Below are positions 4,415 to 35,760 of a DNA stretch of 37,371 nucleotides, piece after piece. The position numbers were made by a program, and so were the translations under genes. Within the stretch, counting starts at the first letter, position 1, and every line of letters begins with the position of its first letter. Source of the stretch: an uncultured Pelagibacteraceae bacterium (lineage in GTDB: Bacteria; Pseudomonadota; Alphaproteobacteria; Pelagibacterales; Pelagibacteraceae); NCBI GenBank assembly GCA_902604575.1, contig CACKZH010000007.1, positions 1-37,371 of the forward strand. The letters run 5' to 3'. The notes beneath the pieces were generated by a model. The model saw only the letters and a list, made by a program, of their open reading frames with translations, had not been told where the DNA came from and did not search any database.

Positions 4415-4415
4415 A

Positions 4416-9518: not shown

Positions 9519-9521
9519 ATT

Positions 9522-9821: not shown

Positions 9822-10156
9822 TGAACCAGATAATTAAATTAAGTGATAACGCAGCATTACGAATAAAAGAAATAATGTCCAATGCTGAAAAAGATTCTAT
9901 TGGTGTTAGAGTATCAGTTAAATCAGGTGGTTGTGCAGGCATGTCTTATGTAATGGAGTATACAAAAGAGTTAAATCCTAACGATGAAGTTATTGAGGAC
10001 AAGGGTGTGAAAGTATTCGTTGATTCTGCTGCTATTATGTATCTGCTTGGCACTGAAATGGATTACAAAAAAGAGGAATTGTCCTCGTCATTTGTGTTTA
10101 ATAATCCCAATGAAACTGAGCGTTGTGGGTGCGGGGAGTCATTTAAAATATCGTAA
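9821..10156 (+). CDS. sufA: A-type Fe-S carrier (SufA/IscA family)
   Basis: 111-aa A-type carrier that receives clusters from the SufBCD scaffold and passes them to apoproteins. The three ligands are Cys38 (SGGCAGMSY), Cys102 and Cys104 (RCGCGESF). I call it sufA from its position as last gene of the suf operon; sequence alone does not separate SufA, IscA and ErpA. Start TAATG overlap with sufT. Confidence 0.93.
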   Translation: MNQIIKLSDNAALRIKEIMSNAEKDSIGVRVSVKSGGCAGMSYVMEYTKELNPNDEVIEDKGVKVFVDSAAIMYLLGTEMDYKKEELSSSFVFNNPNETERCGCGESFKIS

Positions 10157-21212: not shown

Positions 21213-22226
21213 TTAAAATATAATTTTTTCAAATTTTTTTGAATTCAAAGACTTTTTAGCAATTTCAGCTAAAATTAAAGATTTTCTCCCATCATCAAAG
21301 TTAGCTAGAGGTTTAGAATTTTTTTTACAAATCTTCACTAAATCATTTAGTTGAATTTTGTAGGCTTCAGAATATCTTTCAATAAAAAAGTTTTTTAATT
21401 GAGTTTTATTATCTGTTGAATTTTTTGAATACAAAACAGTTTCCAAGTCTCTTTGATTATCTGAAATAATCATTCCTTTTGAACCAAAAAGCTCAATTCT
21501 TTGATCATAACCAAAACTACAATGCCGAGAATTAGTAATAACACATTGCACTCCTTTTTTAGTTTTCATAACTACGGTAGCTAAGTCTAAATCATTTATT
21601 TTTTTTAATTTTCTATCTGAAAAACGTTGCCCAGTAGCAAATATGGATTCAAATTCATCCTTTCCAGCATAAAATCTTGCTAAATCAAAATCATGAATCA
21701 TCATATCCTTAAATATACCTCCAGAATTTTTTAAATAATTTATGGGCGGAGGACTAGGATCTCTGCTAGTAATAATTATTTTTTCCAATTTACCAATTTT
21801 ACCTTTGAGTAAATTTTGATTTAAAGAATTATGCGCTGGGTCGTATCTTCTATTAAATCCGATTTGAATTTTTGGTTTATATTTAGAAATTCTTTTTTTG
21901 CACTTGTTAATTTTATTCAAATCAAGGTCTAAAGGTTTTTCACAAAACACAACTTTTTTATTTACAACTGCTTCTTCAATAAATTTTAAGTGCGTATTTG
22001 TACTAGATGCAATAAATATACATTTAATATTTTTATCTTTAAATGCAATTTTTGGATTTTGAATACCAATAGAGTTATATTTTTTAGACAGTTTTTTTGT
22101 TAATTTTTGATCTTTATCAAAAATATATTTAAGATTAAAATCCTTATGATTTATCAAGTTACTAGCATGCATTTGCCCAATTCTGCCAAGTCCAAATAGC
22201 GCAATGTTGATTATATTTTTACCCAT
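21213..22226 (-). CDS. iolG: Inositol 2-dehydrogenase-like Gfo/Idh/MocA oxidoreductase
   Basis: 337-aa NAD(P)-dependent dehydrogenase. The Rossmann start is ALFGLGRIGQMHA; the catalytic triad is Lys97 (EKPLD), Asp174 and His178 (FKDMMIHDFD), matching the Lys97/Asp172/His176 spacing of Bacillus subtilis inositol dehydrogenase. GFNRRYDP and SRDPSPPP are hallmarks of the IolG group and not of Gfo/Idh proteins in general. It would oxidise myo-inositol or a related cyclitol to the 2-keto form, with the product fitting the iolE-like enzyme two genes away. It overlaps the preceding oxidoreductase gene by 16 nt. Confidence 0.82.
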   Translation of the reverse strand: MGKNIINIALFGLGRIGQMHASNLINHKDFNLKYIFDKDQKLTKKLSKKYNSIGIQNPKIAFKDKNIKCIFIASSTNTHLKFIEEAVVNKKVVFCEKPLDLDLNKINKCKKRISKYKPKIQIGFNRRYDPAHNSLNQNLLKGKIGKLEKIIITSRDPSPPPINYLKNSGGIFKDMMIHDFDLARFYAGKDEFESIFATGQRFSDRKLKKINDLDLATVVMKTKKGVQCVITNSRHCSFGYDQRIELFGSKGMIISDNQRDLETVLYSKNSTDNKTQLKNFFIERYSEAYKIQLNDLVKICKKNSKPLANFDDGRKSLILAEIAKKSLNSKKFEKIIF

Positions 22227-23344
22227 CTTTTACTTCTTGAGGAAATTTTACACGCATTAATAAACTTTGCTGTTTCTAAACCTTCATCTTCATTTGGATA
22301 ATAGTATCTTTTTTTTGTTTTATTTTTTAAAGAATCTGCGAACTCCCTGTAAATATTAGCAAAAGCATCAAGATAGCCTTCTGGATGACCAAATTTTATT
22401 CTTGAGAATTGCTTTGAAAATTCTGAATTATGAAATCCCCTTTCTAATAATTTTACAGCACCTTTTTCTGGATTTAATTTAAGATAATTAGGATCATTTT
22501 GTACCCATTCTAAGCTACCTTTTGAACCAAATACTCTAATTCTTAAACCATAAACACCACCTTTAGCCAATACACTTGTCCAAAATATTCCTTTTGCGCC
22601 GTTGTTAAAATTAATCATTACTTGTGCGTTATCATCCATTTTAATTTTTTTTGATATTTGTTTTATATCTGCAAAAACTCTTTGTCCTTTTAATCCTGAA
22701 ATATAAGAAGCTAGATGGTATGCATGAGTTCCAATTTCATTTAATACGGCAGATGATCCTACTATCTTACTATCAATTTTCCATTTAAGTTTTGTTTTTA
22801 CATTTTTTGAATTAATTTTAGTTCCATCAGACCAATCTTGAATATATTCAACATTTACATACTCAACTTTACCAATCTTACCTTTTTCAACTAATTTTTT
22901 TGCTTCTCTTACCATTGGATAAGCTGAGTAATTGTGGGTTAGGGCATATTTTATTTTTTTATTTGCTTTAATTTTTCTAAATAATTTTTTAGCTTGCTCA
23001 AGATTTCCAGCAAATGGTTTGTCTGAAATTACATGCACATTTTTTTCTATAAATTTTTCAGCTATAATTTGATGACTAGACGGTGGTGTCATAATAGTAA
23101 CAACCTTTATTCCATCTTTCCTTTTGGATTCTTTGTTAGCCATTTCAACATAATTTGAGTAACATCTATCAGGTAATATGCCTAAGCTTTTTGCAAAGTT
23201 TTTAGATAACTTTTCATTTCTTGAAAAAACTCCCGCAACTATTTCATATTTATCATCAAATCTTGCAGAAATTCTATGTACATGACCAATCCAAGATTTA
23301 GGGCCTCCACCAACAATACCTAAAGATAATTTATTTGTTTTCAT
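22211..23344 (-). CDS. Gfo/Idh/MocA family oxidoreductase (island paralogue A)
   Basis: 377-aa sugar or cyclitol oxidoreductase. The Rossmann motif is IVGGGPKSWIGHVHR, the catalytic lysine lies in SDKPFAG, and the catalytic histidine in NEIGTHAYHL, where the residue usually Asp is Glu. It is a clear paralogue of the gene at 33595: the shared blocks IG-VHRIA, ALTHNY--YPMVR, DDNAQ, LEW-Q-DPNYL and GHPEGYL occur in the same order. The frame is open 27 codons upstream, but those run over the divergent iolE promoter region; the ATG at 23344, giving MKTNKLSLGIVGGG, is the sensible start. Substrate unknown. Confidence 0.85.
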   Translation of the reverse strand: MKTNKLSLGIVGGGPKSWIGHVHRISARFDDKYEIVAGVFSRNEKLSKNFAKSLGILPDRCYSNYVEMANKESKRKDGIKVVTIMTPPSSHQIIAEKFIEKNVHVISDKPFAGNLEQAKKLFRKIKANKKIKYALTHNYSAYPMVREAKKLVEKGKIGKVEYVNVEYIQDWSDGTKINSKNVKTKLKWKIDSKIVGSSAVLNEIGTHAYHLASYISGLKGQRVFADIKQISKKIKMDDNAQVMINFNNGAKGIFWTSVLAKGGVYGLRIRVFGSKGSLEWVQNDPNYLKLNPEKGAVKLLERGFHNSEFSKQFSRIKFGHPEGYLDAFANIYREFADSLKNKTKKRYYYPNEDEGLETAKFINACKISSRSKRWVKI

Positions 23345-23384
23345 TGATTGTTTGTTTTTATATATCATAACAAATAAATATATT
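23345..23384. promoter_or_regulatory. Divergent promoter region, oxidoreductase A / iolE
   Basis: With the starts chosen at 23344 (minus) and 23385 (plus), only 40 nt, almost all A/T, separate two divergent genes. The promoters must overlap each other or the start regions. TATATA-type sequences at 23360-23365 could serve as -10 boxes. No operator symmetry stands out. Confidence 0.4.
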
Positions 23385-24284
23385 ATGTCAGTAAAATTAG
23401 GAATAGCACCCATAGCATGGAGCAATGATGATATGCCTGAGCTTGGCGGTGATACACCTCTTGAACAGTGTCTTTCAGAAGCTAGTGAAGCAGGATTTTC
23501 AGGAATTGAGTCTGGAGGGAAGTTTCCGAAAAAATCAAAAGAATTAATTCCCTTGTTAGATAAAAATAATCTGAAATTATGTTCGGGATGGTATGGAGCA
23601 AATTTAAGAATAAATTCAGTAAAAGAAGAAATAGAATTAATTCAAGGTCAATTAAAACTTTTTCAAGATTGTAATGCACCATGTATCGTATTTGCAGAAG
23701 TTTCAGATTCTATTGCAGGTGATCCAAAAAGACCTCTGTCAACAAGACCAAAAATGACCAATGAGGAATGGATTAATTATTGTAAAAAAATTTCTGAAAT
23801 TGGAAAATACCTTGAAGACCAAGGTATGCCACTAGCTTACCATCATCATATGGGAACAGTTATTGAGACACAACAAGATACTGAAAGACTTTTAGAAAAT
23901 ACTTCTGACCAGGTTAAATTAATTCTAGACACTGGTCATATGCTTTTTGCTGGTGGTAATTCTATTGAAGTAGCAAATAATTTTAAAGAAAGAATTATTC
24001 ATGTTCATTGCAAGGACATGAGAAAAAATGTTTTAGAAAAGTCATTAAAAGATGATTTTAGTTTCCGTCAAGCTTTTCTAGAAGGAGCTTTTACAGTTCC
24101 AGGCGATGGATTGATTAATTATGAACCGCTATTAACTCTCTTGAAAAAAAATGATTATAATGGTTGGCTTGTAGTAGAGGCAGAACAAGACCCAGCAAAA
24201 GCAAACCCTTTAGAATACGCTAAAATAGGATATAAATATTTATCAAATGTCTGTAAAAAAATTGATTTAGAAATCAATTTATAG
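23385..24284 (+). CDS. iolE: Myo-inosose-2 dehydratase-like TIM-barrel protein
   Basis: 299-aa TIM-barrel enzyme of the sugar phosphate isomerase/epimerase superfamily. The N-terminus IAPIAWSNDDMPELGGDTPL with GIESGGKFP is the IolE signature. Metal and active-site residues appear in YHHHMG (about 152-157), LDTGHML (Asp182, His185), HVHCKD and VVEAEQDP (Glu265). IolE dehydrates 2-keto-myo-inositol in inositol catabolism. The following steps (iolD, iolB, iolC, iolJ) are not in the window, so either they lie elsewhere or this family member has another keto-cyclitol substrate. ATG 23385 gives the family N-terminus; the longer frame from 23352 is not used. Confidence 0.85.
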   Translation: MSVKLGIAPIAWSNDDMPELGGDTPLEQCLSEASEAGFSGIESGGKFPKKSKELIPLLDKNNLKLCSGWYGANLRINSVKEEIELIQGQLKLFQDCNAPCIVFAEVSDSIAGDPKRPLSTRPKMTNEEWINYCKKISEIGKYLEDQGMPLAYHHHMGTVIETQQDTERLLENTSDQVKLILDTGHMLFAGGNSIEVANNFKERIIHVHCKDMRKNVLEKSLKDDFSFRQAFLEGAFTVPGDGLINYEPLLTLLKKNDYNGWLVVEAEQDPAKANPLEYAKIGYKYLSNVCKKIDLEINL

Positions 24285-25244
24285 TTTTATAATTTTTGAT
24301 TTATCTAATTTGTTATCAAAAAAATCAATAATATTTTGAGCTGTTTCTTTCCCCATTCTTGTCATACATTCTTCAGTAAAAGCAGCAGTATGTGGACTTA
24401 AAAATACTTTATTATTTTTTAGCAAAGGATTATTTGTTTCAGGTGGCTCAATCTCAAAAACATCTAAACCAGCTCCAAAAATTAAATTTTCATTTAAGGC
24501 TCTATCTAGATCAATTTCATTTATCACTCCACCTCTTGCAGCGTTGATTATAATACAATTTTTTTTCATATTTTTTAGTAAATCATAATTGATAATATTC
24601 TTTGTTTTTTCATTAAGCGGCACATGAAGAGATATAGCATCCATATTTTTTGAGGATTGCTCTAAACTGTCAACTTTAATACCCCCGTGCTTTTCAATTA
24701 TTTTTTTAGATACAAATGGATCATAAACAAAAACTTTCATTTCAAAACCATGACATCTTTTTATCAAAGCTTGTCCAATACGACCAAATCCAGCAATCAA
24801 TATATTTTTGTTCCACAATTCAACTGTTTTGGGTAATTTATTTCGATCATTGAATTTACCACTTTTAACAGTTTCATCATACATATTTCCTTTTTTAGAA
24901 ATATTTAGCAGCATAAACATTACATGTTCGGCTACTGCTACTGCATTTGCAGTTGCTGTGATTGAAAGAGTGATATTATTTTTTTTAGCACTCTCTAAGT
25001 CTATATTGTCATAACCAACGCCGTGTCTTGAAATAATTTTTAATTTAGTTGAACCTTCAATTACTTCTCCAGCAAGCTTTGCAGTCCTGATAGAGATACC
25101 ATCACAATCCTTTATCTTGGATTTTAAAAATTCGTTATCTGTATTTTCTACTATTTCAAATTCATAATCAGAATTATCTTCTAATAATTTTATACCAGCA
25201 GTATGAATAGGCTGAATAATTAAAATTTTTTTTTTACTGCTCAT
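24279..25244 (-). CDS. D-2-hydroxyacid dehydrogenase (PGDH-like)
   Basis: 321-aa NAD-dependent dehydrogenase of the D-isomer-specific 2-hydroxyacid family. The nucleotide loop is GFGRIGQALIKR; catalytic residues are Arg in NAARGGVINE, Glu in DVFEIEPPE and His in LSPHTAAFT. It has no C-terminal ACT domain, so it is the short form. It sits 59 nt after dhaK in the same direction and is probably the last gene of the transporter operon. Reduction or oxidation of a sugar-derived hydroxyacid such as glycerate, hydroxypyruvate or a C4 acid is more likely here than serine synthesis, but this rests on context. Confidence 0.85.
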   Translation of the reverse strand: MSSKKKILIIQPIHTAGIKLLEDNSDYEFEIVENTDNEFLKSKIKDCDGISIRTAKLAGEVIEGSTKLKIISRHGVGYDNIDLESAKKNNITLSITATANAVAVAEHVMFMLLNISKKGNMYDETVKSGKFNDRNKLPKTVELWNKNILIAGFGRIGQALIKRCHGFEMKVFVYDPFVSKKIIEKHGGIKVDSLEQSSKNMDAISLHVPLNEKTKNIINYDLLKNMKKNCIIINAARGGVINEIDLDRALNENLIFGAGLDVFEIEPPETNNPLLKNNKVFLSPHTAAFTEECMTRMGKETAQNIIDFFDNKLDKSKIIKL

Positions 25245-25303
25245 ATTTAAGTTTGAATAAGGACTTTTTAATACAAAAATTAATTAAAAATGTAAATTAC
25301 TTT

Positions 25304-26296
25304 TTACATACCCCATCGCATAGCCGCAGTATGTACAGGTGCATCCCAATTTTTTAAAATTTCGTCATCACATTTTAGGAGTGTGATTGATGCTCCTTGC
25401 ATTTCAAGTGATGTACAATAATTACCAACTAAACTTCTTGTGATTTCAATTCCTTTAGATTTTAAAATTTCACAAGCATCATTGTATACTAAATATAATT
25501 CAGTAAGAGGAGTTCCGCCCATACCATTTATAAACAGAGTCGTCTTTTCATTTTTTTGTGGTTTTAAATCATCAAGTATAGCTTCCAGCATGTTATTTAC
25601 TATTGTTTTTGATGGTTGAATTTTTTCTCTCTTTCTTCCAGGTTCACCGTGTATACCTACTCCAAATTCCATTTCATCATTTCCAATATCAAAAGTTGGT
25701 TTGCCTGCAGCAGGAACTGTACAACTAGTAAAAGCAACACCCATAGTTCCAGAGTTTTTGTTTACTTTTTCACCAAGTTTTTTACATTCTTCTAACGAAC
25801 CTCCATTCTCAGCTAGTGATCCAACAATCTTTTCGACTAAAACTGTTGCAGCTACACCTCTTCTACCAGTTGTGAACGTAGAGTCTTCAACAGCCACATC
25901 GTCATTAGTAATGATACTATCATTTTTACCTGAGTACATTTCCGCACCCATTTGAAAATTCATAATATCCCCAGAATAATTTTTTACTATGAATAAAACA
26001 CCAGCTCCACTATCCACATGTTCAGCAGCAGCTTGCATTTGATCTGGAGTAGGTGCTGAAAAAACAAAACCTGGACATGCTGCATCTAGCATTCCATGAC
26101 CAACAAAACCACCGTGCATCGGTTCATGTCCACTTCCTCCACCTGAAATTAAAGATACTTTTCCCTCTTTAGTTTTTGTCTTTCTAGAAATGAAGTTTGG
26201 TTCAAAATTTACTTTAATTATATCACTATGCGCATTACCAAATCCATTAAGACTTTCTTTTAAAAAATCATCAACGTTATTTATAAATTTTTTCAT
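25304..26296 (-). CDS. dhaK: Dihydroxyacetone kinase-type subunit DhaK
   Basis: 330-aa substrate-binding subunit of a dihydroxyacetone-type kinase. The ketose is bound as a hemiaminal to His216 in GIHGEPG (His218 in E. coli DhaK); His57 in SGHEP and Asp110 in NYSGD match the E. coli His56 and Asp109. PGFVFSAPTPDQM is another family block. A strong Shine-Dalgarno (AGGGGGA) precedes the ATG; dhaL ends 8 nt upstream. Together the genes make a split ATP-type kinase. Related enzymes phosphorylate erythrulose and other small ketoses, so dihydroxyacetone is only one possible substrate. Confidence 0.93.
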   Translation of the reverse strand: MKKFINNVDDFLKESLNGFGNAHSDIIKVNFEPNFISRKTKTKEGKVSLISGGGSGHEPMHGGFVGHGMLDAACPGFVFSAPTPDQMQAAAEHVDSGAGVLFIVKNYSGDIMNFQMGAEMYSGKNDSIITNDDVAVEDSTFTTGRRGVAATVLVEKIVGSLAENGGSLEECKKLGEKVNKNSGTMGVAFTSCTVPAAGKPTFDIGNDEMEFGVGIHGEPGRKREKIQPSKTIVNNMLEAILDDLKPQKNEKTTLFINGMGGTPLTELYLVYNDACEILKSKGIEITRSLVGNYCTSLEMQGASITLLKCDDEILKNWDAPVHTAAMRWGM

Positions 26297-26304
26297 ATTT
26301 CCCC

Positions 26305-26934
26305 CTATTTATTAATTAGTGATTTACATATTGTATCGATTATAAGTTGTGATGAACGAGCTCCTGGATCTATATGACCTTTGGCACGTTCTCCTAAAAA
26401 TGAAGCTCTACCTTTGGTAGCAAGCATGTCTTTTGTTCCTAACATTCTATCTTCAGCAATTTTTATTATCTCACCTAACCCTTCTTTCATATCCGTATTG
26501 CCACCTTTTAATTCATTAAGTTTTTCTGATACTGGAATTAGAACATCCATCATTGTTTTTTCTCCAACATCAGCTTTTCCTCTTTCCTTCATTGCATTAA
26601 TTCCTGTTATAACCATTTCACATGCTTTGTTAAAATCTATATCTTTATCTAAATCTGGTGTTTTAGCCATAGACATAAAGAAAGTTCCAAACAAAGCTCC
26701 AGAAGAGCCACCAATACCTGACAAGACTTTCATAGCAATCATATTTAAACCTTTTTGCATAGGAAGGTTTTTAATATTATCTTCAAGCTCAACTACTAAC
26801 TTAAGACCTCTTTGCACATTAAATATATGATCCCCATCACCAATATTTTGATCTAGTGCTTCAATTTCTGCTGCATTTTCATTAATGACTATTTGAATAT
26901 TTTTTGCTTGAGAAATTAAAAAATTAACGCTCAT
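26305..26934 (-). CDS. dhaL: Dihydroxyacetone kinase-type nucleotide subunit DhaL
   Basis: 209-aa all-helical subunit that holds ADP/ATP and magnesium for phosphoryl transfer to the ketose on DhaK. The three metal Asp residues are Asp28, Asp33 and Asp35 in LDQNIGDGDH, matching Asp30/35/37 of E. coli DhaL; the Gly that usually follows DH is Ile here. GIGGSSGALFG and the C-terminal GHIDPGARSS are family motifs. ATG 26934 is preferred over 26958 because AAAGGA lies 5 nt before it and MSVNFLISQ fits the family; it overlaps the ATPase gene by 11 nt. No dhaM (PTS phosphodonor) is present, implying ATP as donor. Confidence 0.9.
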   Translation of the reverse strand: MSVNFLISQAKNIQIVINENAAEIEALDQNIGDGDHIFNVQRGLKLVVELEDNIKNLPMQKGLNMIAMKVLSGIGGSSGALFGTFFMSMAKTPDLDKDIDFNKACEMVITGINAMKERGKADVGEKTMMDVLIPVSEKLNELKGGNTDMKEGLGEIIKIAEDRMLGTKDMLATKGRASFLGERAKGHIDPGARSSQLIIDTICKSLINK

Positions 26935-27934
26935 ATATCCTTTGGTCTCCGTTATCAAATTTTAAAACTTTATTTGTATTAATGTCAAAATTAATTTTTT
27001 CATCAATTGATGATTTATAACCACCCTGAATTGACGCTAATATTTCATTGTTTTGAAAATTAATAGCCACAACAGTCTCTGAACCTAAATTTTCTATAGA
27101 AACAACCCTTCCTTCGTATGGTCCATCACCCAACGCAATATTTTCTGGTCTAAGTCCAATTTTTGGTATGTTGTTATCTAGTTTAAATAAAGAACCAGGT
27201 AAAATATTTATTTTTGGTGACCCTAATCTTTGGGATACATAAATTGAATTTGGATTTTCATAAATTTCTTCAGGAGTTCCAATTTGAACAATTTTGCCTT
27301 CTTTTAAAACGCCAATTTTATCTGCCAATGTTGTTGCTTCAGCTTGATCATGTGTAACATACAAAATAGTAGCGTTTAGATTTAATTGAATATTTTTTAA
27401 TTCAACCCTGAGGGTTTCTCTTAGTTTAGCATCTAATGAGGATAGTGGCTCATCCATTAAATAAATATTTGGTTCACGTACTAGAGCTCTACCAATAGCT
27501 ACTCTTTGCATTTCTCCACCCGAAAGTTGAGTTGCTTTATTTTTTAATTTGTTTGTAATTTTCAGCATTTCAGCAATTTTCTCAACTTTATTTTTTATCT
27601 CTTCCTCAGGAAGTTTTCTCATTGGTGACCTTAATGGAAAAGCAAGATTTTCATAAACAGTATAATGAGGATAAAGAGAGTATTGTTGAAAAACAAAAGT
27701 CACATCTCTTGAAGCAGGTTGATCATGAGTTATATTTTCATCATTAAATAATACATCTCCAGAATCAATTTTTTCTAAACCGGCTATACATCTAAGTGTC
27801 GTAGTTTTTCCAGCACCAGATGGACCTAGCAATACAAAAAATTGACCATCTTCAATTGTGAGATTTATATCCTCCAAAGCTTTAATTTTTTTATTATAAC
27901 TTTTAAATAATTTTTTTAGTTCTACTTTTGCCAT
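26924..27934 (-). CDS. ABC sugar transporter ATPase 1 (MalK/UgpC-type)
   Basis: 336-aa ATPase of a CUT1-type importer. Walker A is GPSGAGKTTT, the signature LSGGEMQRVAIGRAL, Walker B IYLMDEPLSSLD and the switch THDQAEATTLADK. After about residue 235 there is a MalK-like TOBE/OB regulatory domain (GLRPENIALGD). Its gene directly follows ATPase 2 (TAATG overlap); both look catalytically complete, so the importer probably uses a heterodimeric ATPase pair, as the rhizobial glycerol importer GlpS/GlpT does. Confidence 0.94.
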   Translation of the reverse strand: MAKVELKKLFKSYNKKIKALEDINLTIEDGQFFVLLGPSGAGKTTTLRCIAGLEKIDSGDVLFNDENITHDQPASRDVTFVFQQYSLYPHYTVYENLAFPLRSPMRKLPEEEIKNKVEKIAEMLKITNKLKNKATQLSGGEMQRVAIGRALVREPNIYLMDEPLSSLDAKLRETLRVELKNIQLNLNATILYVTHDQAEATTLADKIGVLKEGKIVQIGTPEEIYENPNSIYVSQRLGSPKINILPGSLFKLDNNIPKIGLRPENIALGDGPYEGRVVSIENLGSETVVAINFQNNEILASIQGGYKSSIDEKINFDINTNKVLKFDNGDQRIYER

Positions 27935-29016
27935 TATTTTATAAACTCGCTGTTTAAAGATTTGTCTGTTTCACCATCAAAAATAATAATATTATTATTT
28001 AATGGTTTAACCTGAACATTTTCATTCAATTTAGCGTTAACAGAGATATCTGTTTTAACTTTAATTTCACCTAAACTTGTTTTAATCGTAATTATTTTTC
28101 TTGATCCTAAATATTCAACTCCAAAAACTGAACCTTTGAGACCTTCATTATTACTAAGAGTTAAATTTTCTGGACGTATACCAAAGAAATTTTTACTTCC
28201 TTTTGACTCTTCAAGTTGTTTGGGAATATTAAATTTAGTTCCTTCGATGTTTACAAAAGATTGATCTTTAGAAATTCCTTCATCAAATTCAAAAAAGTTC
28301 ATACCTGGAGATCCTATAAATGAGGCTACAAATTTAGTTTTAGGTTTATTGTAAATAATATTAGGTTCATCAGCTTGTAATATTTCACCACCGTCCATAA
28401 CTGCAATTCGGTCAGCTAATGACATTGCTTCTAACTGATCATGTGTTACATAAACTGTAGTTGCTCCTATATCTAAATGTAGTTTTTTTAATTCTAGACA
28501 CATTAATTCTCTAAATTCAGCATCCAAAGTTCCCAATGGTTCGTCCATTAAAAATGCTTTTGGTCTTCTAACTAGTGCTCTACCTAAAGCTACTCGTTGT
28601 CTATCTCCGCCTGAAAGAGAGGAAATGTTAGAATTTAAAATATGATCAATTCTTAAAAGTTTTGCTGCTTCTTCAACTCTACTTTTGATATCACTTTTTT
28701 TATAACCTTGCATTTTTAAAGGAAATGATAAGTTGTTTCTTACATTCATGTGTGGATAGAGGGCAAATAATTGAAAAACAAAAGCAATATCTCTTTCTGA
28801 TGCTCTTAACATTCCAACCTCTTCATCTCCAAGATATATCTCACCAGATGTAGGTAATTCTAATCCTGCAATCATTCTAAGTGTTGTAGTTTTTCCACAA
28901 CCTGAGGGTCCAAGTAAAACAAAGAACTCTTTATCATTAATCGTTAAATTAGAATTTTTAACTGCAGTAAAATCACCAAATGATTTTTGTAAATTTACTA
29001 TTTTAATTTCAGACAT
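27934..29016 (-). CDS. ABC sugar transporter ATPase 2 (MalK/UgpC-type)
   Basis: 360-aa ATPase. Walker A is GPSGCGKTTT, the signature LSGGDRQRVALGRAL has Asp where Gln or Glu is usual, Walker B is AFLMDEPLGTLD and the switch THDQLEAMSLAD. The C-terminal third is a TOBE/OB domain (FGIRPENLTLS). It begins 1 nt after the small membrane protein gene and shares one base with ATPase 1. Sequence differs clearly from ATPase 1, so it is not a recent tandem copy. Confidence 0.94.
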   Translation of the reverse strand: MSEIKIVNLQKSFGDFTAVKNSNLTINDKEFFVLLGPSGCGKTTTLRMIAGLELPTSGEIYLGDEEVGMLRASERDIAFVFQLFALYPHMNVRNNLSFPLKMQGYKKSDIKSRVEEAAKLLRIDHILNSNISSLSGGDRQRVALGRALVRRPKAFLMDEPLGTLDAEFRELMCLELKKLHLDIGATTVYVTHDQLEAMSLADRIAVMDGGEILQADEPNIIYNKPKTKFVASFIGSPGMNFFEFDEGISKDQSFVNIEGTKFNIPKQLEESKGSKNFFGIRPENLTLSNNEGLKGSVFGVEYLGSRKIITIKTSLGEIKVKTDISVNAKLNENVQVKPLNNNIIIFDGETDKSLNSEFIK

Positions 29017-29017
29017 A

Positions 29018-29209
29018 TTAATCCGGAAAGTGGCTTGTGATTATGAAACCTATAGTTCCTACTAAAATTACAATAAAAGAATAAGTAAACATCCACATTG
29101 CAAATGGTTGCAACAACATGAAAACTCCAATTAAAATTAATATCGTCGATAAGTTTTCCCAGTAAACTCTTCTAAATATTTTTCTCATTAGTGACTTTTC
29201 TTCTTGCAT
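29018..29209 (-). CDS. Small two-helix membrane protein in the ABC operon, 63 aa
   Basis: 63-aa protein with a charged N-terminus (MQEEKSLMRKIFRRVYWEN) and two hydrophobic helices, STILILIGVFMLLQPFAMWM and TYSFIVILVGTIGFIITS, ending SHFPD. The ATG at 29209 overlaps the permease stop by one base (TAATG) and the gene ends 1 nt before ATPase 2, so it is embedded in the operon; the longer upstream frame lies within the permease gene and is not used. I recognise no named family. Small membrane proteins also accompany the rhizobial glycerol importer (a DUF2160 protein), but this one lacks that motif pattern as I know it. It may be an accessory transporter subunit. Confidence 0.75.
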   Translation of the reverse strand: MQEEKSLMRKIFRRVYWENLSTILILIGVFMLLQPFAMWMFTYSFIVILVGTIGFIITSHFPD

Positions 29210-30153
29210 TATTTTCTTACTGCTCCAAAGGTAATACCTCTTAAAAGATGTTTTCTTAAAATGATTGTAAAAATCATCACTGGTAATAGAAACAAAGTTG
29301 TTCCCGCACCAATTGCTGGCCAATCAAGACCGCCTTCACCAATGATTGTAGGAATAAATGGTGGAGCTGTTTGTGCATTGAATTGAGTTAGTAAAACGGC
29401 AAAAGCGTATTCATTCCATGAAAAAATCATACAAAAAATTGCTGTTGCGGCTATACCAGTCATTGCTTGTGGAAGAACAACTTTAAAGAAAGCTTGAAGT
29501 CTAGAATATCCATCGATCATAGCTGCTTCTTCATATTCTTTAGGAATTTCATCCATAAACCCTTTTAATAACCATACAGCCAAACTTAGGTTTACAACGG
29601 TATACAATATGATCATTCCGAGGTGAGTATCCCCAAGACCTAATTTTCTATACATAATAAATATAGGAACAGCCACTGCTATTGGAGGAAACATCCTGGT
29701 CGAAAGAATAAAAAATAATAAATCATCTTTTAAAGGAACCCTAAACCTTGAAAATGCATATGCAGCCAATGCTCCTAAAAACACAGATGCAAAAGTTGAA
29801 CCAAATCCAATTATCATTGAATTTGAGTATCTCCCCAAAAATTTAGATGGTCCTGTTATAACCATCTCTCTACTTCTAACTAGTTCTTCGTACCAATTTT
29901 CTGGGGCAGGTAATGAATCAAGGTATTCTTGTGATTGTCTTGACCTATTAGTAAATAAGTTAACATATCCCTCTAGGGATGGCTCAAACAAAACTTCGGG
30001 TGGATATGAAATAGCACTATCAACATTTTTAAAACTTGTCATTACCATCCAAGATATTGGTATCAAAGTAATTACAGCGTAAACTATGATAATAGCAGCA
30101 GCCATTTTTTTTGAAAAAGACGAAGGTTCTAAATATGATCTAGAAGTATCCAT
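29209..30153 (-). CDS. ABC sugar transporter permease 2 (MalG-type)
   Basis: 314-aa inner-membrane permease with six helices. The EAA loop that contacts the ATPase is YEEAAMIDGYSRLQAFFKVV followed by LPQ. The N-terminus has a cytoplasmic stretch, then AAAIIIVYAVITLIPISWMV as the first helix. A long periplasmic loop follows (about residues 45-110), as in MalG-like proteins. Start overlaps the first permease by one base (TGATG) and the stop overlaps the small membrane protein gene. Confidence 0.94.
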   Translation of the reverse strand: MDTSRSYLEPSSFSKKMAAAIIIVYAVITLIPISWMVMTSFKNVDSAISYPPEVLFEPSLEGYVNLFTNRSRQSQEYLDSLPAPENWYEELVRSREMVITGPSKFLGRYSNSMIIGFGSTFASVFLGALAAYAFSRFRVPLKDDLLFFILSTRMFPPIAVAVPIFIMYRKLGLGDTHLGMIILYTVVNLSLAVWLLKGFMDEIPKEYEEAAMIDGYSRLQAFFKVVLPQAMTGIAATAIFCMIFSWNEYAFAVLLTQFNAQTAPPFIPTIIGEGGLDWPAIGAGTTLFLLPVMIFTIILRKHLLRGITFGAVRK

Positions 30154-31052
30154 CAGCGTTCCTTAATTTTATTCATTACTTTTACGTAAACATTTCCGAA
30201 ACCAAATATGGTAACAAAAAGAATAACAGCAAATGCTGAGCTGTAACCTGTTTTCCATTTTTCAAACGCTTCTCTTTTTAAGTTAATTGAAGCAAGTTCT
30301 GTAGCAGAGCCGGGACCACCAGAGGTGAGCTCAACAACCATGTCAAACATTTTGAAATTCTCAATCCCTCTAAAAAGCAGAGCTAATAATAAAAATGGTA
30401 AAACGGAAGGCAAAGTAATATATATAAATTGCTGCCATTTACTTGCTCTATCAACCTCTGCAGCTTCGTATAAATAATTTGGAACAGATCTTAGACCTGC
30501 TAAGCAAATTAACATTGTAAAAGGTGTCCACATCCATGTATCAACAATAACAATAGCCCAAGGAGCAAGGGTACTTGAACCAATCATATCAAAGCTTCCT
30601 AAATCATAGAAAAAATTAACCACGTAATTAAATAGACCTACTTGTGGATTATAAAGATAAGTCCAAAATACCCCTACTACAGCAGGTGATAACATCATCG
30701 GTAAAACAATTAATGTGGTTAGTAGTTCATTACCTTTAAATTTCCTGTTAAGAAGTAAAGCTAAACCCAAACCTATAATTGCTTGGAGTAATAAAGTCCA
30801 AAACATAAAGCTTGCTGTAACTTGCATTTTTTCCCATATAGCTTCTTTATTAAGAACTTTAATATAATTTTTTAAACCAACAAACTGAGGTTCTCTTCCA
30901 ATTTTATTTGCATAAAAATTTGTAAAGGACATTTTGATTGCATAGACCAATGGATAAATATTTATAGCCAATAGCAGAAGTACAGTTGGTCCAATAAAAA
31001 GCCAACCTACAGCTTTATCAGAAAGTCCCTTGAATTTTTTTTTAACGCTCAT
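30153..31052 (-). CDS. ABC sugar transporter permease 1 (MalF-type)
   Basis: 299-aa inner-membrane permease with six helices; the first is GWLFIGPTVLLLLAINIYPL. The EAA loop is YEAAEVDRASKWQQFIYITL. It is the first gene after the hairpin that separates it from the binding protein gene, 66 nt away. Pairs with permease 2 to form the transmembrane channel. Confidence 0.94.
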   Translation of the reverse strand: MSVKKKFKGLSDKAVGWLFIGPTVLLLLAINIYPLVYAIKMSFTNFYANKIGREPQFVGLKNYIKVLNKEAIWEKMQVTASFMFWTLLLQAIIGLGLALLLNRKFKGNELLTTLIVLPMMLSPAVVGVFWTYLYNPQVGLFNYVVNFFYDLGSFDMIGSSTLAPWAIVIVDTWMWTPFTMLICLAGLRSVPNYLYEAAEVDRASKWQQFIYITLPSVLPFLLLALLFRGIENFKMFDMVVELTSGGPGSATELASINLKREAFEKWKTGYSSAFAVILFVTIFGFGNVYVKVMNKIKER

Positions 31053-31065
31053 ATGAATTTTTTAT

Positions 31066-31092
31066 AAAAAAAGGGGAGGCGTGACCCCCCCT
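31066..31092 (-). terminator. Terminator-like hairpin between binding-protein and permease genes
   Basis: On the minus strand, AGGGGGGG and CCTCCCCT type arms form an 8-bp stem, seven Watson-Crick pairs and one G-U, around the 5-nt loop TCACG, followed directly by seven U. On the plus strand the same position would be an A-C mismatch and there is no U tract, so the signal is for minus-strand RNA only. It lies inside the ABC operon, where partial termination would make more binding protein than membrane components. In a region this AT-rich a G/C stem is conspicuous. Confidence 0.8.
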
Positions 31093-31118
31093 AATATTTA
31101 ATTTTTTAAGTATTAATG

Positions 31119-32423
31119 TTAAAGTTTTCCGTCTGCTTCGAATACTTCAACCCACTCTTCGATAATTTTATCTAGAGCGCCTTTAGCAGTTCCTTTTCCA
31201 TTAACAACATAGTCATGAATTGCTTCTTGCATAGGAAGCATTAACTCTACGAAAGTTGGTTCTTGCCAAAAATCTTTGACAATTCCCATTGAGTCCAAGA
31301 ATCCTTGTGCATAAACAGTTGATGTTGGAAATGATGGTGAATTCAAAACATCATTATGACATGAGTATCCACCCAGATCCCACCATTTTTGTTGTACATC
31401 TGGTCTTGCAAACCACTTAATGTATTCAAGAGCAAGATCTTGTTTGTCTGAGTATTTAACAACAGATATTCCTTGTCCACCTAATGTTGCAGCTGCAACA
31501 TTTTGTTTTGGATTTGCAAAGAAGCCACTAACTCTTCCGTCACTGTCTTCTTTAGATACACCAGGCCAGAAAGCATACCAGTTCATTTGGAATGCAACTT
31601 GTCCTGATTTGTAAGCATCTAAGTTTGCAACCATGTAAGCATCAGAGTGTCCTGGAGGTGCGCAGTCTTCATATAACTTTCTATAAAATTCAACCGCCTC
31701 TACAGCTTGTGGTGAATTGAAATATCCTTCCATATCGTATGGTTTGTTAGGATTTTCATATTCCATACCCCATGCATACATAGCAGCTGTAACACCCATT
31801 GTTATACCTTCTGATCCACGTTCTGTGTTAATTGCAGCCCCATATCTTTTTTGACCATCAATTTCTCTTCCTTGGAAGAACTTACACATATCATGTAATT
31901 GATTCCAGTTTGCAGGAACTCCTAGATCATATCCGTGTTTCTTTTTGAACTCTGATTTAAGTTCTGGTCTATCAAACCAGTCTTTTCTATAAGCCCAAGC
32001 CAAAGCATCTCCCATAGCCGGTAATGCATAGTAGTTCTTACTACCTTTTGGCCAAGTAGAATATGCATAAACTGTGGCTGGCGAGAAATCGCTCATTGAA
32101 ATTCCCTCTTTATCAAAGAAGTCATTCAATTTTACGTAATGCCCATAAACAGCTCCAGCACCAATCCACTGCGAGTCACCTATTAATAAGTCAAAAGTTT
32201 TACCTTTGTTGTTAAGTTCATTTAACATACGGTCAGCAAAATTTGGCCAAGGTACAAACTCAAAGTTAACTTCTATTCCAGTTTCAGAAGTAAATTCTTT
32301 AGTTAATTCTTGTAAAGCATTAGCAGGGTCCCAAGCGGCCCATCCTAATGTTATAGATTTAGCATTTGAATTTACAGAGAACGAAAATAGAGAAACAAAC
32401 AATAAAATCATTATTTTTTTCAT
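31119..32423 (-). CDS. ABC sugar transporter substrate-binding protein (family 1)
   Basis: 434-aa periplasmic binding protein. A signal peptide is clear: KKIMILLFVSLFSFSVNSNA with cleavage likely after NSNA. The mature protein starts ITLGWAAWDPANALQ and shows the two-lobe family 1 pattern, with DLLIGDSQWIG, a central YALPAMGDALAWAYRKDWFD and YIKWFARPDVQQKWW. Aromatic residues are abundant, as expected for sugar stacking. The frame opens 15 codons earlier, but ATG 32423 has a strong GAGGAG site and begins the signal peptide directly. It is the first gene of the operon. Confidence 0.93.
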   Translation of the reverse strand: MKKIMILLFVSLFSFSVNSNAKSITLGWAAWDPANALQELTKEFTSETGIEVNFEFVPWPNFADRMLNELNNKGKTFDLLIGDSQWIGAGAVYGHYVKLNDFFDKEGISMSDFSPATVYAYSTWPKGSKNYYALPAMGDALAWAYRKDWFDRPELKSEFKKKHGYDLGVPANWNQLHDMCKFFQGREIDGQKRYGAAINTERGSEGITMGVTAAMYAWGMEYENPNKPYDMEGYFNSPQAVEAVEFYRKLYEDCAPPGHSDAYMVANLDAYKSGQVAFQMNWYAFWPGVSKEDSDGRVSGFFANPKQNVAAATLGGQGISVVKYSDKQDLALEYIKWFARPDVQQKWWDLGGYSCHNDVLNSPSFPTSTVYAQGFLDSMGIVKDFWQEPTFVELMLPMQEAIHDYVVNGKGTAKGALDKIIEEWVEVFEADGKL

Positions 32424-32539
32424 TTTATCTCCTCTTAGTTTATTTATTCTAAAGAATAGTCTACCCAAGATGGGTTGTGGCTGCTAGTATTTTTTTTATA
32501 AAAATAAATTGTTGATAAATTTAAAGAGAGGGGGAGATT
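32424..32539. promoter_or_regulatory. Divergent control region of the sugar island
   Basis: 116 nt separate the binding-protein operon (minus) from the TIM-barrel gene (plus). The inverted repeat ACCCA-AGA-TGGGT (32463-32475) is the main symmetry. Putative promoters: plus TTGTGG (32475-32480), 16 bp, TATAAA (32497-32502); minus TTGGGT (complement of 32463-32468), 16 bp, TAAATA (complement of 32441-32446). Both -35 boxes touch the repeat. Both sides have strong ribosome-binding sites (GAGGAG minus, AGGGGGAG plus). Confidence 0.55.
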
Positions 32540-33595
32540 ATGAACAATATAAAAGGTCCTGCAATTTTCTTAGCACAATTTGTAGGTGAAGATGCACCTT
32601 TCAATTCTTTAGATAACATTTGTAAATGGGCATCTTCTTTAGGTTATAAAGGTGTACAAATTCCAAGTTGGGATAGTAGATTAATAGATCTAAAGAAAGC
32701 GTCTGAGAGTAAAGATTATTGTGATGAAATAAAAGGTATAACAAAAAAACATAATCTCGAGATCACTGAGCTATCAACACATCTTCAAGGACAATTGGTT
32801 GCAGTACATCCTGCATACGACACAGCATTTGATGGATTTGCTGCACCTGAAGTTAGAGGAAATCCAAAAGTAAGACAAGAGTGGGCTGTAAATCAATTGA
32901 TGATGGCAGCTAAGGCCTCAAAAAATCTTGGACTACATAGACATGTTACTTTCTCAGGAGCACTAGCTTGGCCTTATGTTTATCCTTGGCCACAAAGACC
33001 AGAAGGACTAATCGAAAACGCATTTAATGAGCTTTCAAACCGATGGAAACCAATTCTTGATCAATTTGATCAAAATGGAGTTGATCTTTGTTATGAGATA
33101 CATCCAGGTGAAGATCTTCACGATGGTATAACATTTGAAATGTTTTTAGAAAAAGTTGGTAATCATAAAAGATGCAACATGCTTTATGATCCCAGTCATT
33201 ATGTTTTACAGAATTTAGATTACTTGGCTCATATAGATATTTATCATGAAAAAATAAAAATGTTTCATGTTAAAGATGCAGAATTAAATCCTACTGGAAA
33301 ACAAGGGGTGTATGGTGGTTTTCAATCTTGGGTCAACAGAGCAGGTAGATTTAGGTCTCTTGGTGATGGACAGGTAGATTTTAAATCAATCTTTTCAAAG
33401 TTTACCACTTATGGTTATGATGGTTGGGCAGTTCTAGAATGGGAGTGTTGTCTTAAACATCCAGAAGACGGAGCAAGAGAAGGAGCTGAATTTATCAAAA
33501 ATCATATTATTAACACCACAGAAAAAGCATTCGATGATTTTGCAGGTAGTGGTGCTGATATTGAAGCAAATAAAAAAATGCTGGGTATAAATTAG
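32540..33595 (+). CDS. TIM-barrel sugar isomerase/epimerase family protein
   Basis: 351-aa member of the AP-endonuclease-2/xylose-isomerase-like TIM-barrel superfamily. Probable metal ligands are Glu186 (CYEIHPGE), Asp217 (YDPSH), His243 (MFHVKDAE) and Glu300 (VLEWE). A ~35-residue insertion, VAVHPAYDTAFDGFAAPEVR, and the SGALAWPYVYPWPQRP loop are features beyond the minimal barrel. It overlaps the next oxidoreductase gene by one base (TAGTG). Family members include isomerases, epimerases, dehydratases and keto-glycoside lyases; its pairing with a Gfo/Idh enzyme suggests it acts on the keto product. Confidence 0.88.
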   Translation: MNNIKGPAIFLAQFVGEDAPFNSLDNICKWASSLGYKGVQIPSWDSRLIDLKKASESKDYCDEIKGITKKHNLEITELSTHLQGQLVAVHPAYDTAFDGFAAPEVRGNPKVRQEWAVNQLMMAAKASKNLGLHRHVTFSGALAWPYVYPWPQRPEGLIENAFNELSNRWKPILDQFDQNGVDLCYEIHPGEDLHDGITFEMFLEKVGNHKRCNMLYDPSHYVLQNLDYLAHIDIYHEKIKMFHVKDAELNPTGKQGVYGGFQSWVNRAGRFRSLGDGQVDFKSIFSKFTTYGYDGWAVLEWECCLKHPEDGAREGAEFIKNHIINTTEKAFDDFAGSGADIEANKKMLGIN

Positions 33596-34746
33596 TGCAA
33601 AGAAAAATCCGTATCGGAATGGTTGGTGGAGGAGAAGGTGCTTTTATTGGGGGTGTTCACAGAATAGCCTTAAGACTTGATGGTCATTACGAATTAGTAG
33701 CAGGATGTTTTTCGTCTAATTTTGATAACTCTAAAGAAACTGGAAGAAAACTTGGATTATCGGAAAAACGTATCTATGAAACTTATAAAGAAATGGCTGA
33801 TAAAGAGTCTACTCGTTCCGATGGGATAGATGTTGTTTCTATAGTAACTCCTAACCATCTTCATGTGCCAGTGGCAAAAATTTTTGCAGAAAAAGGTATT
33901 CACATTATTTGCGATAAGCCTCTTGCGTTTTCAAGTGAAGAAGCAAACTCCCTTAAAGATATCATAGAAAATAAAAAGATAATTTTTGCCTTAACACATA
34001 ATTATACTGGATATCCAATGGTTAGACATGCAAGATCTCTAGTTAAAGAAGGTGATCTTGGAAAAATAAGAGTTATACAAGCAGAATACCCTCAAGATTG
34101 GTTAACTACAAAAGCTGAGGATACTGGCTTAAAACAAGCTGAGTGGAGAACTGATCCTAAAAGATCTGGAGGAGGAGGTTGCATAGGAGATATAGGAACT
34201 CATGCATTTAATCTTATTAGATTTATAACCGAGTTAGAATTGGATGAGCTATCAGCTGACATTCATACTTTTGTGAAGGGGCGAAAACTAGATGATAATG
34301 CACAAATCATGCTTAGATTTAAAGGCGGTGCAAAAGGTGCAATATGGTCTAGTCAAGTTGCAGTTGGTAATGAAAATAATCTTAAAATCAGAGTGTATGG
34401 TGAAACTGGTGGGTTAGAGTGGAAACAAGAAGATCCTAATTATTTGTATTATACAAAATTTGGAAAACCTACCGAAAAAATAACAAGAGCTAGTGGCAGT
34501 GCAAATAAAGAAGCAAACGATGTTACAAGAATTCCACCAGGTCATCCAGAGGGATATTTGGAAGGTTTTGCAAATATTTATACTGATGTTTCTAAAAGAT
34601 TAAATGCTCAAATAAACAATGAAAAATATAACGAGTTAGATGACTGTTACCCAACTATTTATGATGGTGTTGAAGGAATGAAGTTTATAGAGACCGTTAT
34701 AAATTCAAGTAAAAATAACAGTAAATGGACTCAGTTTAATAATTAA
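33595..34746 (+). CDS. Gfo/Idh/MocA family oxidoreductase (island paralogue B)
   Basis: 383-aa NAD(P)-dependent oxidoreductase. The N-terminus is GMVGGGEGAFIGGVHR, the catalytic Lys lies in CDKPLAFS, and the catalytic Asp and His in GDIGTHAFNL. Long-form Gfo/Idh proteins with this G-A-F-I-G Rossmann variant and a GHPEGYLEGFA block near the C-terminus form their own subgroup, also represented here by the gene at 22211. Start is GTG at 33595, overlapping the TIM-barrel stop. It ends 2 nt from the convergent PhyH gene. Substrate unknown; oxidation of a sugar or cyclitol hydroxyl to a ketone is the family reaction. Confidence 0.88.
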   Translation: MQRKIRIGMVGGGEGAFIGGVHRIALRLDGHYELVAGCFSSNFDNSKETGRKLGLSEKRIYETYKEMADKESTRSDGIDVVSIVTPNHLHVPVAKIFAEKGIHIICDKPLAFSSEEANSLKDIIENKKIIFALTHNYTGYPMVRHARSLVKEGDLGKIRVIQAEYPQDWLTTKAEDTGLKQAEWRTDPKRSGGGGCIGDIGTHAFNLIRFITELELDELSADIHTFVKGRKLDDNAQIMLRFKGGAKGAIWSSQVAVGNENNLKIRVYGETGGLEWKQEDPNYLYYTKFGKPTEKITRASGSANKEANDVTRIPPGHPEGYLEGFANIYTDVSKRLNAQINNEKYNELDDCYPTIYDGVEGMKFIETVINSSKNNSKWTQFNN

Positions 34747-34748
34747 AA

Positions 34749-35729
34749 TTAAATTAATTTAGATAAATCTTTTTTATTTGTTTTGAATGTTGGCAATGGA
34801 TATTTAAAAGCATATTTCCCAACACGTTTTTCTTTAGCTTTTTCCCAAAGAGATAACCATTGTTTGAAATTTTTAATTTTAAGATTTTTTTTATTTTTAC
34901 TTCTAACGTAAAAATTTGGAAGGGGTTCTCTCCCTGATGGTTGTCCGGCAACATTATATCTTAGGTCAGCACTAATTCTAAAATCATTTGATCTATTTGG
35001 CAAAGAGTAGTGTATTGAATGTTTGTGTAGAAGTATTACATCACCAATGTTCGCTTCTAAATAAATATGCTTCATATCATCTAATAATTCACTATTTTTT
35101 AATTCTACTTGTCCTCTGTATCCTGATATGTGATTTAGTAATCCCATTTTATTGATCTTTTTAACAGTAATCATACATCCATTTTTTTTAGTAGTTTTGG
35201 TAAAAGGAATCCACACAGTAACCATGTCAGTTAATTTTTGTCCTCTTGTATTCAATACAGCCGCATCCTGATGCCAAGGTGTTCTTCCACTTAGACCATC
35301 ATGAATTGATCCTTTTGGTAATTTTTTTTCAGGTTGTTTAATTCTAGTATTTTGAACAGGGTTAGACATTATTTCTTTACCCAAAATTTTTTCTACAACA
35401 TCTAAAATTTTTTTATTAGTAATTAAATTCCACAATGATTGGGTTGCAAAATAATCGCTATCTCGCTTTACATGATCTCTTGGTAATCTTGTATTAAAAT
35501 ATTGATCAAGATCATAAATATTAAGTTTTGAAATATATGAGTATTTTTTTTTAAATTCTAAGTTAAGAACTTTTTTGATCTCTCTTTTTTTTGCATATTT
35601 TTGAATAAGACAGTCTATTACAAATTCCATATCATTAAGAATTGGTTTTAAATCTCTGTTAAAGTTAAGTACCTTTTTGACGATTAGGTAACCGTTCTCA
35701 TATAGTTTTTTTTGAAGACTATTTGTCAT
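34749..35729 (-). CDS. Phytanoyl-CoA dioxygenase (PhyH) family protein
   Basis: 326-aa 2-oxoglutarate and Fe(II)-dependent oxygenase. The iron ligands are His153 and Asp155 (TPWHQDAA) with distal His240 in the block LLHKHSIHYSLPNRS, and Arg251 binds 2-oxoglutarate. PhyH proteins hydroxylate diverse small molecules, including acyl-CoAs and compatible solutes. It follows another 2OG oxygenase gene by 31 nt on the same strand. The N-terminal 100 residues are Lys-rich and helical. Substrate not inferable. Confidence 0.85.
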   Translation of the reverse strand: MTNSLQKKLYENGYLIVKKVLNFNRDLKPILNDMEFVIDCLIQKYAKKREIKKVLNLEFKKKYSYISKLNIYDLDQYFNTRLPRDHVKRDSDYFATQSLWNLITNKKILDVVEKILGKEIMSNPVQNTRIKQPEKKLPKGSIHDGLSGRTPWHQDAAVLNTRGQKLTDMVTVWIPFTKTTKKNGCMITVKKINKMGLLNHISGYRGQVELKNSELLDDMKHIYLEANIGDVILLHKHSIHYSLPNRSNDFRISADLRYNVAGQPSGREPLPNFYVRSKNKKNLKIKNFKQWLSLWEKAKEKRVGKYAFKYPLPTFKTNKKDLSKLI

Positions 35730-35760
35730 AACTAAAATTTATTTTATCATTTAGATAATT

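Follow-up and report, generated by a model that had tools for sequence, protein, structure and literature searches.

An inositol cluster with a probable aldolase-type lower branch, adjoining a separable DhaKL importer cassette, in a contig of an uncultured Pelagibacteraceae bacterium

Do the sugar- and cyclitol-related genes at positions 21213-34746 of contig CACKZH010000007.1 (C7; assembly GCA_902604575.1), from an uncultured Pelagibacteraceae bacterium, serve a single catabolic pathway, or do they belong to separate systems? The window analyzed here is the entire contig (37,371 bp), part of a genome of 919,719 bp in 59 contigs that is 69.9% complete; the region studied spans 13.5 kb and 14 genes. 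An initial annotation had joined these genes into one route leading from import by an ATP-binding cassette (ABC) transporter through oxidation to a split DhaKL kinase. Our comparisons suggest instead that the region probably comprises two adjoining cassettes: an inositol cluster, whose lower branch would consist of an aldehyde dehydrogenase (ALDH), an HpcH/HpaI-type aldolase (HpcH) and a D-2-hydroxyacid dehydrogenase (2HADH), and a DhaKL importer cassette that was inherited separately. From the sequences compared, an inositol cluster in which the lower branch has been replaced appears to be a better reading than one pathway through DhaKL, which we consider improbable.

Domain scans of the region identified three Gfo/Idh proteins, two PF01261 xylose-isomerase-like TIM barrels, DhaK, DhaL, one D-2-hydroxyacid dehydrogenase and five ABC genes (one binding protein, two permeases and two ATPases). 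All genes named in the initial annotation are intact open reading frames (ORFs) with the expected domains, and a 63-aa ORF is additional to them. The genes of the region and its right flank are as follows.

21213..22226, reverse strand: iolG, inositol 2-dehydrogenase (NCBIfam TIGR04380, 370.5 bits vs cut-off 355); inositol module
22211..23344, reverse strand: Gfo2, a long oxidoreductase of the Gfo/Idh type, flanked by iolG and iolE (Pfam Gfo/Idh; neighborhood of its homologues); inositol module
23385..24284, forward strand: iolE, myo-inosose-2 dehydratase, 299 aa (NCBIfam TIGR04379, 409.7 bits vs cut-off 290); inositol module
24279..25244, reverse strand: 2HADH, D-2-hydroxyacid dehydrogenase (PF02826/PF00389); inositol module
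25304..26296, reverse strand: dhaK (NCBIfam TIGR02363, 463 bits vs cut-off 406); inserted cassette
26305..26958, reverse strand: dhaL (NCBIfam TIGR02365, 190 bits vs cut-off 138); inserted cassette
26924..27934, reverse strand: ABC transporter ATPase 2 (PF00005); inserted cassette
27934..29016, reverse strand: ABC transporter ATPase 1 (PF00005, OB_MalK); inserted cassette
29018..29209, reverse strand: 63-aa ORF of membrane type, lying between a permease gene and an ATPase gene (from its translation); inserted cassette
29209..30153, reverse strand: ABC permease 2 (PF00528); inserted cassette
30153..31052, reverse strand: ABC permease 1 (PF00528); inserted cassette
31119..32423, reverse strand: solute-binding protein (PF01547/PF13416); inserted cassette
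32540..33595, forward strand: TIM351, a TIM barrel like 2-hydroxy-3-keto-glucal hydratase (PDB 8ro4, 598 bits, residues 1-350; tree); inserted cassette
33595..34746, forward strand: Gfo3, oxidoreductase partner of TIM351 (PDB 3v5n, 'Oxidoreductase', 481 bits); inserted cassette
34749..37371, reverse strand: PhyH dioxygenase, 2OG-Fe(II) dioxygenase and, truncated where the contig ends, a PanE-like reductase; these genes flank the inositol module

The left-hand genes point to inositol. The 337-aa Gfo/Idh protein (21213-22226) scores above the equivalog cut-off for iolG and the 299-aa TIM barrel (23385-24284) above that for iolE, which bears out the earlier view of a catabolic, cyclitol-related island. 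Gfo2 has four close homologues (75-82% identity) among 40 relatives, all of them adjoining iolE, while homologues of the 2HADH gene directly follow the HpcH aldolase gene in G010, G013, G018, G020, G023 and G247 as well as in plasmid operons. The stretch 21213-25244 is thus best read, as part of the joint two-cassette interpretation, as one end of what is probably an inositol-degradation cluster. Among the 41 genomes compared (the 40 relatives and the genome itself), iolD exceeded its curated cut-off in eight and iolE in nine, including this one, all of the same genus. HpcH and ALDH genes adjoin iolD in nine of nine same-genus iolD loci, and G247, a member of the genus assembled in one contig (99% complete) with iolD above the cut-off, holds iolG, iolE, a 166-aa ORF, 2HADH, HpcH, ALDH, iolD, Gfo and an importer in a single cluster.

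Where, then, would the other end of the cluster lie? In the closest relative, G022, whose DhaK is 98% identical to that of the window, the gene order of the window's right part recurs and extends further than our contig (names transferred from homologues in G004 and G005): PanE-like, DUF1907, a 138-aa ORF, PanB-like, HpcH/HpaI aldolase, ALDH, iolD and Gfo, then another 2-hydroxyacid dehydrogenase (here 2HADH-340), an importer of ribose type, RbsD and PfkB. Contig C28 of our genome (6,228 bp) carries TctC, PdxA, PfkB, rbsD, rbsB, rbsC, rbsA and a cut 2HADH-340, and represents the far flank of this arrangement. Because of the synteny with G022 and this far flank, the HpcH aldolase, ALDH and iolD genes are probably located in the assembly gap between C7 and C28; the idea that iolD is simply missing was rejected on the same grounds.

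Same-genus iol clusters take two main forms (L027/L028 vs L031-L034 and L110): in one, iolG has beside it a dedicated binding protein, permease and ATPase as well as a 166-aa ORF, while the other has PhyH, 2OG, PanE- and PanB-like genes and a ribose-type importer.

The classical myo-inositol pathway (iolGEDBCJA) has in common with this cluster iolG and iolE at equivalog level in the window, iolD beside the same genes in relatives, and a methylmalonate/malonate semialdehyde dehydrogenase (MMSDH) in the genome. It differs in its lower branch, since iolB, iolC above the cut-off and DUF2090 are absent here and an aldolase, an ALDH and a 2-hydroxyacid dehydrogenase stand in the cluster instead. With the family model, iolB was found in none of the 41 genomes, control genomes being positive, nor in G247; an iolB reference sequence matched two positive controls only, and nothing in 80 listed HpcH loci or 17 other stretches from the genus. 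Likewise, iolC exceeded its cut-off in none of the 41 genomes, though weaker PfkB matches were common. DUF2090, described as an alternative inositol aldolase domain (in the available text of PMC9007349), was absent from all 12 iol-bearing genomes tested in the genus (G247 has none), and was therefore rejected as a hidden aldolase. The classical combination of iolC with a DKGP aldolase was thus not recovered (iolC 0 of 41, DUF2090 0 of 12; no search was made for IolJ). The initial annotation had reported iolB, iolC, iolD and iolJ as unseen: this stands for iolB and iolC, but iolG and iolE exceed their cut-offs within the window and iolD lies next door in relatives. It had also reasoned that iolBCDJ elsewhere in the genome, co-expressed and accompanied by a binding protein specific for myo-inositol, would point to ordinary inositol use; of these genes only iolD is indicated, and this by synteny across the gap, while iolB and iolC were not found.

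Ordinary inositol use could nonetheless be imagined if an unrecognized isomerase and a PfkB kinase replaced IolB and IolC on the way to dihydroxyacetone phosphate, with HpcH, ALDH and 2HADH serving another substrate. The genes for IolG, IolE and IolD are true equivalogs, and several relatives have a PfkB kinase gene close to the cluster; C28 carries one too. However, the PfkB protein of G004 scores as a ribokinase (312 bits vs cut-off 299.65) and reaches only 97 bits against the 300 needed for IolC, for which reason the neighboring PfkB was rejected as IolC. Together with the lack of iolB in all 41 genomes and the association of ALDH-HpcH with iolD, common to Pelagibacteraceae loci and plasmid clusters alike, this makes ordinary inositol use an unlikely explanation.

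How widespread is that association? The matches listed for the HpcH aldolase alignment gave 80 loci (at least 80 exist), all labelled Pelagibacteraceae or Pelagibacter and several on short contigs. HpcH is present in all 80 by construction; ALDH occurs in 79, iolD in 75, a Gfo gene in 73, iolG in 47, iolE in 46 and 2HADH in 54 at a threshold of 35% identity (50 at 50% identity or more), while iolB and iolC occur in none. Across the class, iolD exceeds its cut-off in 35 of 289 genomes, and HpcH lies near it in three of these (G247, G110 and G055). In G110, an iolG-ALDH-HpcH-2HADH run stands opposite iolD-iolE, and other iolD loci come with iolC.

Plasmids carry comparable operons. Consecutive genes for ALDH, HpcH and a protein of hydroxyacid-dehydrogenase type stand in annotated clusters of Klebsiella aerogenes, Pantoea At-9b, Paracoccus alcaliphilus, Rhizobium daejeonense and Shinella, each of which also has iolD and a MurR/RpiR regulator; iolE-SDR is present in four of the five. 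Twenty of the best 40 of 753 plasmid HpcH records were also among the best 40 of 196 iolD records, and 19 of these had the HpcH and iolD places within about 13 kb. Of the 19, 13 were compared, selected for having HpcH and iolD on one record and considered apart from the other replicons of their hosts: ALDH, HpcH, 2HADH and iolD occur in 13 of 13, iolG in 12, iolE in nine, iolC in two and iolB in one. Five further plasmid HpcH loci, outside the best-40 iolD list, had no iolD match.

From these gene sets we infer an inositol route that bypasses IolB, IolC and IolJ, in which 5-deoxyglucuronate would be oxidized and then cleaved to malonate semialdehyde and a C3 oxoacid. IolG would convert inositol to 2-keto-inositol, IolE would dehydrate it, and IolD, placed in the assembly gap, would open the ring to give 5-deoxyglucuronate. 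As this is an aldehyde acid, ALDH would yield 5-deoxyglucarate, whose C2 alcohol, D-configured when assigned by hand, suits a D-2-hydroxyacid dehydrogenase; 2HADH (or a Gfo/Idh protein) could thus oxidize it. The resulting 2-oxoacid would be a 4-hydroxy-2-oxoacid, the substrate class cleaved by HpcH/HpaI aldolases, and this class II aldolase may split it into hydroxypyruvate and malonate semialdehyde. Furthermore, C3 of the proposed 2-oxoacid would be S (also assigned by hand), matching the S configuration that, according to a review, this family yields in its products when the donor is of that kind (available text of PMC7610986). Malonate semialdehyde would be consumed by MMSDH, which the genome encodes (707 bits vs cut-off 448.5). 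IolD in this genome and every step after it are thus predicted, and whether the sequence of reactions amounts to a second inositol pathway, kinase-free and common to marine SAR11-like bacteria and to some plasmid operons of Alpha- and Gammaproteobacteria, with oxidation after IolD and HpcH/HpaI cleavage to malonate semialdehyde and hydroxypyruvate (or pyruvate), seems to us an evenly balanced question.

The sequence of the aldolase bears on the C3 product. Among solved sequences, its top eight matches score 254-259 bits and the next group 172, and four of the eight are, by the entry codes in PMC10099721, the Sphingomonas wittichii RW1 aldolase SwHKA, which was crystallized with hydroxypyruvate and converts it (available text of PMC10099721). 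The cluster aldolases resemble SwHKA, which is among their nearest solved relatives, in keeping the catalytic His, Arg, Glu and Asp, in having an aromatic residue at a position that is Leu in GarL and RhmA, and in having Ser at the S116 column; they differ in having His where SwHKA has Phe at the F210 column. In SwHKA, the aromatic F210 replaces a conserved Leu (same source). Across 90 aligned aldolases, mostly from one bacterial family (the 80 listed loci, eight from the genus, G110 and G055), the class II active-site residues H46, R71, E147 and D173, together with H213 and S118, are present in 90 of 90, whereas columns 213 and 118 are Leu and Gly in GarL and RhmA of Escherichia coli. Columns 213 and 118 correspond to F210 and S116 of SwHKA, since the mutant entries 7o5w (F210W) and 7nnk (S116A) show W and A there.

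Alternatively, 5-deoxyglucarate could be dehydrated to 4-hydroxy-2-oxoadipate, from which HpcH would release pyruvate and malonate semialdehyde. Among NCBIfam models, the aldolase matches HpaI best (174.7 bits, below the cut-off of 368.8), and genes for pyruvate carboxylase or phosphoenolpyruvate synthase are annotated in four of the plasmid regions, which rather suggests pyruvate. H213 and S118 also occur in aldolases beside glucarate/galactarate genes, some of them dehydratase genes. This shared His is therefore no proof of a hydroxypyruvate donor, and we withdrew it as such. A dehydratase would be needed, however, and the sole enzyme of enolase type that was tracked occurs in four of the 80 listed loci, while the plasmid iol clusters that were read have no annotated GarD-type gene (no genome-wide dehydratase search was made); 2HADH would moreover be left without a role. 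A pyruvate branch is thus possible but the less favored option, and the C3 product may be hydroxypyruvate or pyruvate, both being candidates.

Besides the signs of pyruvate, several observations weigh against a two-cassette reading with this lower branch. The assembled genome is without iolD (its best matches reach 219 and 205 bits against a cut-off of 715), and iolD, ALDH and HpcH were not observed in this 69.9% complete genome itself. Searches for MMSDH at 1e-100 found none in G010, G020 and G022 and a partial match in G013. No glycerate kinase of either searched family was found in 15 genomes of the genus and order, so hydroxypyruvate lacks an obvious route through glycerate, and glycerate kinases were dropped as support for it. 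G110 and G055 have HpcH beside iolD, yet both also carry iolB and DUF2090, in G055 at other places. Conversely, 14 of the 35 iolD-bearing class genomes have no iolB match, and the 13 of these other than G247, all alphaproteobacterial and several with short contigs, showed no HpcH near iolD; lack of iolB thus does not imply the HpcH variant, and those 13 may use some different lower branch or an isomerase only distantly related to IolB.

Does the DhaKL importer block belong to the same pathway? The stretch 25304-34746 (dhaK, dhaL, two ATPases, the small ORF, two permeases, the binding protein, TIM351 and Gfo3) is a separable 9.5-kb unit. DhaK occurs in four of the 41 genomes, and in G004 the cassette lies on contig C4 and the iol genes on C2. 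In L170, whose PanE and PhyH are 98% and 92% identical to those of the window's flank, the distance between PhyH and 2HADH is about 50 bp, vs 9.5 kb in the window; the cassette would thus appear to have been inserted between 2HADH and PhyH and inherited separately from the inositol module. Ruegeria conchae has the whole set with a LacI regulator and a 540-aa DhaK that, by its length, is probably a fused DhaKL. Importer and DhaK genes occur without TIM or Gfo genes in stretches of Alloyangia, Rhizobium and Phyllobacterium, and the Phyllobacterium record has a TIM351 relative about 49 kb from importer and DhaK. These comparisons lend no support to one route running from import via oxidation to DhaKL, and a single pathway ending in DhaKL was rejected.

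Such a pathway would have the importer take up a cyclitol or cyclitol glycoside, the Gfo and TIM proteins cut it, and DhaKL phosphorylate the last ketose. Two observations favor it: iolD or iolE is likewise present in all four of the 41 genomes that carry DhaK, and TIM351-like genes (64-66% identical) with an adjacent Gfo gene occur in 10 of the 13 plasmid iol-HpcH loci, so that in other bacteria these pairs do accompany inositol clusters. The latter finding also counts against a clean division into two cassettes. However, in an unrooted TIM tree of 19 rows, the nine iol-linked plasmid TIMs split with 100/100 support from the window's group, which comprises the copies from the genus and four non-iol proteins from Azospirillum, Agrobacterium, Sulfitobacter and Ruegeria. 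This split indicates that the window's TIM351 came with the DhaKL cassette, though TIM/Gfo pairs go with iol genes elsewhere, and TIM351 was rejected as a member of the plasmid iol-linked group. (The Gfo tree gave long-branch warnings for Gfo2, and nothing about Gfo2 was drawn from it.) In addition, TIM351 occurs in only three of the 80 listed HpcH loci, some of them short; the 12 plasmid loci compared with all references had no DhaK or DhaL match; and the importer and DhaK of the Alloyangia, Rhizobium and Phyllobacterium stretches lack iol genes as well as TIM genes. With the cassette lying elsewhere in G004, we regard one pathway as the least likely of the explanations considered.

If two cassettes are present, the importer and DhaKL may serve dihydroxyacetone or a close ketose. 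The window shares with rhizobial and roseobacter operons the order of binding protein, two permeases, small ORF and two ATPases, then DhaK (in the window, DhaK and DhaL), and its binding protein (31119..32423) is 62-65% identical to those of the DhaK-linked operons of Ruegeria, Alloyangia, Rhizobium and Phyllobacterium. The 63-aa ORF matches the small 'hypothetical protein' of such operons by position and length, the sequences not having been compared. The window differs from these importer operons in its split DhaL and DhaK; DhaM and further parts of the phosphotransferase system are present in the operons of Rhizobium and Phyllobacterium, whereas no DhaM was recognized among the named window ORFs, and the window's kinase may use either ATP or a donor of that system. 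A co-regulated Bradyrhizobium version of importer and kinase has been published (blr3567-blr3577; available text of PMC5017801), with another order of kinase genes.

TIM351 and Gfo3 may pair as hydratase and reductase in the manner of the non-hydrolytic glucoside pathway described for Agrobacterium, which comprises oxidation, elimination, hydration and reduction by GlycDH, OGE, HYD and a Gfo oxidoreductase (available text of PMC10628242). The initial annotation had compared the TIM-barrel/Gfo pair to enzymes of 3-keto-glycoside breakdown, and this comparison held: TIM351 is a HYD homologue over its full length (598 bits over 350 residues to the solved 2-hydroxy-3-keto-glucal hydratase, PDB 8ro4), with an adjacent Gfo oxidoreductase. 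The difference lies in the combination of TIM351/Gfo3 with a DhaKL importer cassette. By eye, no separate eliminase (OGE) or first oxidase (GlycDH) was recognized among the window ORFs, and no sequence search for them was made. Elsewhere, TIM351/Gfo pairs adjoin sugar importers, and xylA too in two regions out of three; in all three, as in Ruegeria, the TIM351 relative is followed by a Gfo/Idh gene.

If the inositol cluster does have a replaced lower branch, a class II aldolase branch would stand in for three textbook steps, and current gene markers would overlook inositol use by uncultured marine bacteria. A 2022 inositol survey scored a locus (IolCatGC) when at least three of iolB, C, D and E occurred in it (available text of PMC9430895); only D and E were found in the relatives' loci, and this type of cluster would therefore go unscored, as a kinase-free pathway would in any survey with that requirement. 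The proposed route would also give a biological role to SwHKA-like hydroxypyruvate aldolases, which the literature text consulted treats as biocatalysts; the main text of PMC10099721 is without the words pathway, physiological and inositol. No association of iolD with HpcH was described in the titles and abstracts listed from the open-access literature, and the main text of two HIMB59/AEGEAN-169 papers (PMC10308909, PMC10734472) does not contain the word inositol; genome size, GC content and the layout of the family suggest to us that the window belongs to the HIMB59-type order.

The genes flanking the region also recur. In the vicinity of HpcH, PhyH, a second 2OG dioxygenase and the PanE-like gene occur together with DUF1907 and PanB-like genes in 25-29 of the 80 listed loci (about a third; L138-L203), and the iol regions of Shinella and Pantoea BRR-3P likewise include an annotated gene for phytanoyl-CoA dioxygenase. 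Upstream, the ORFs at positions 3989-10156 appear to comprise a regulator and a suf-type iron-sulfur operon, which would be ordinary housekeeping genes.

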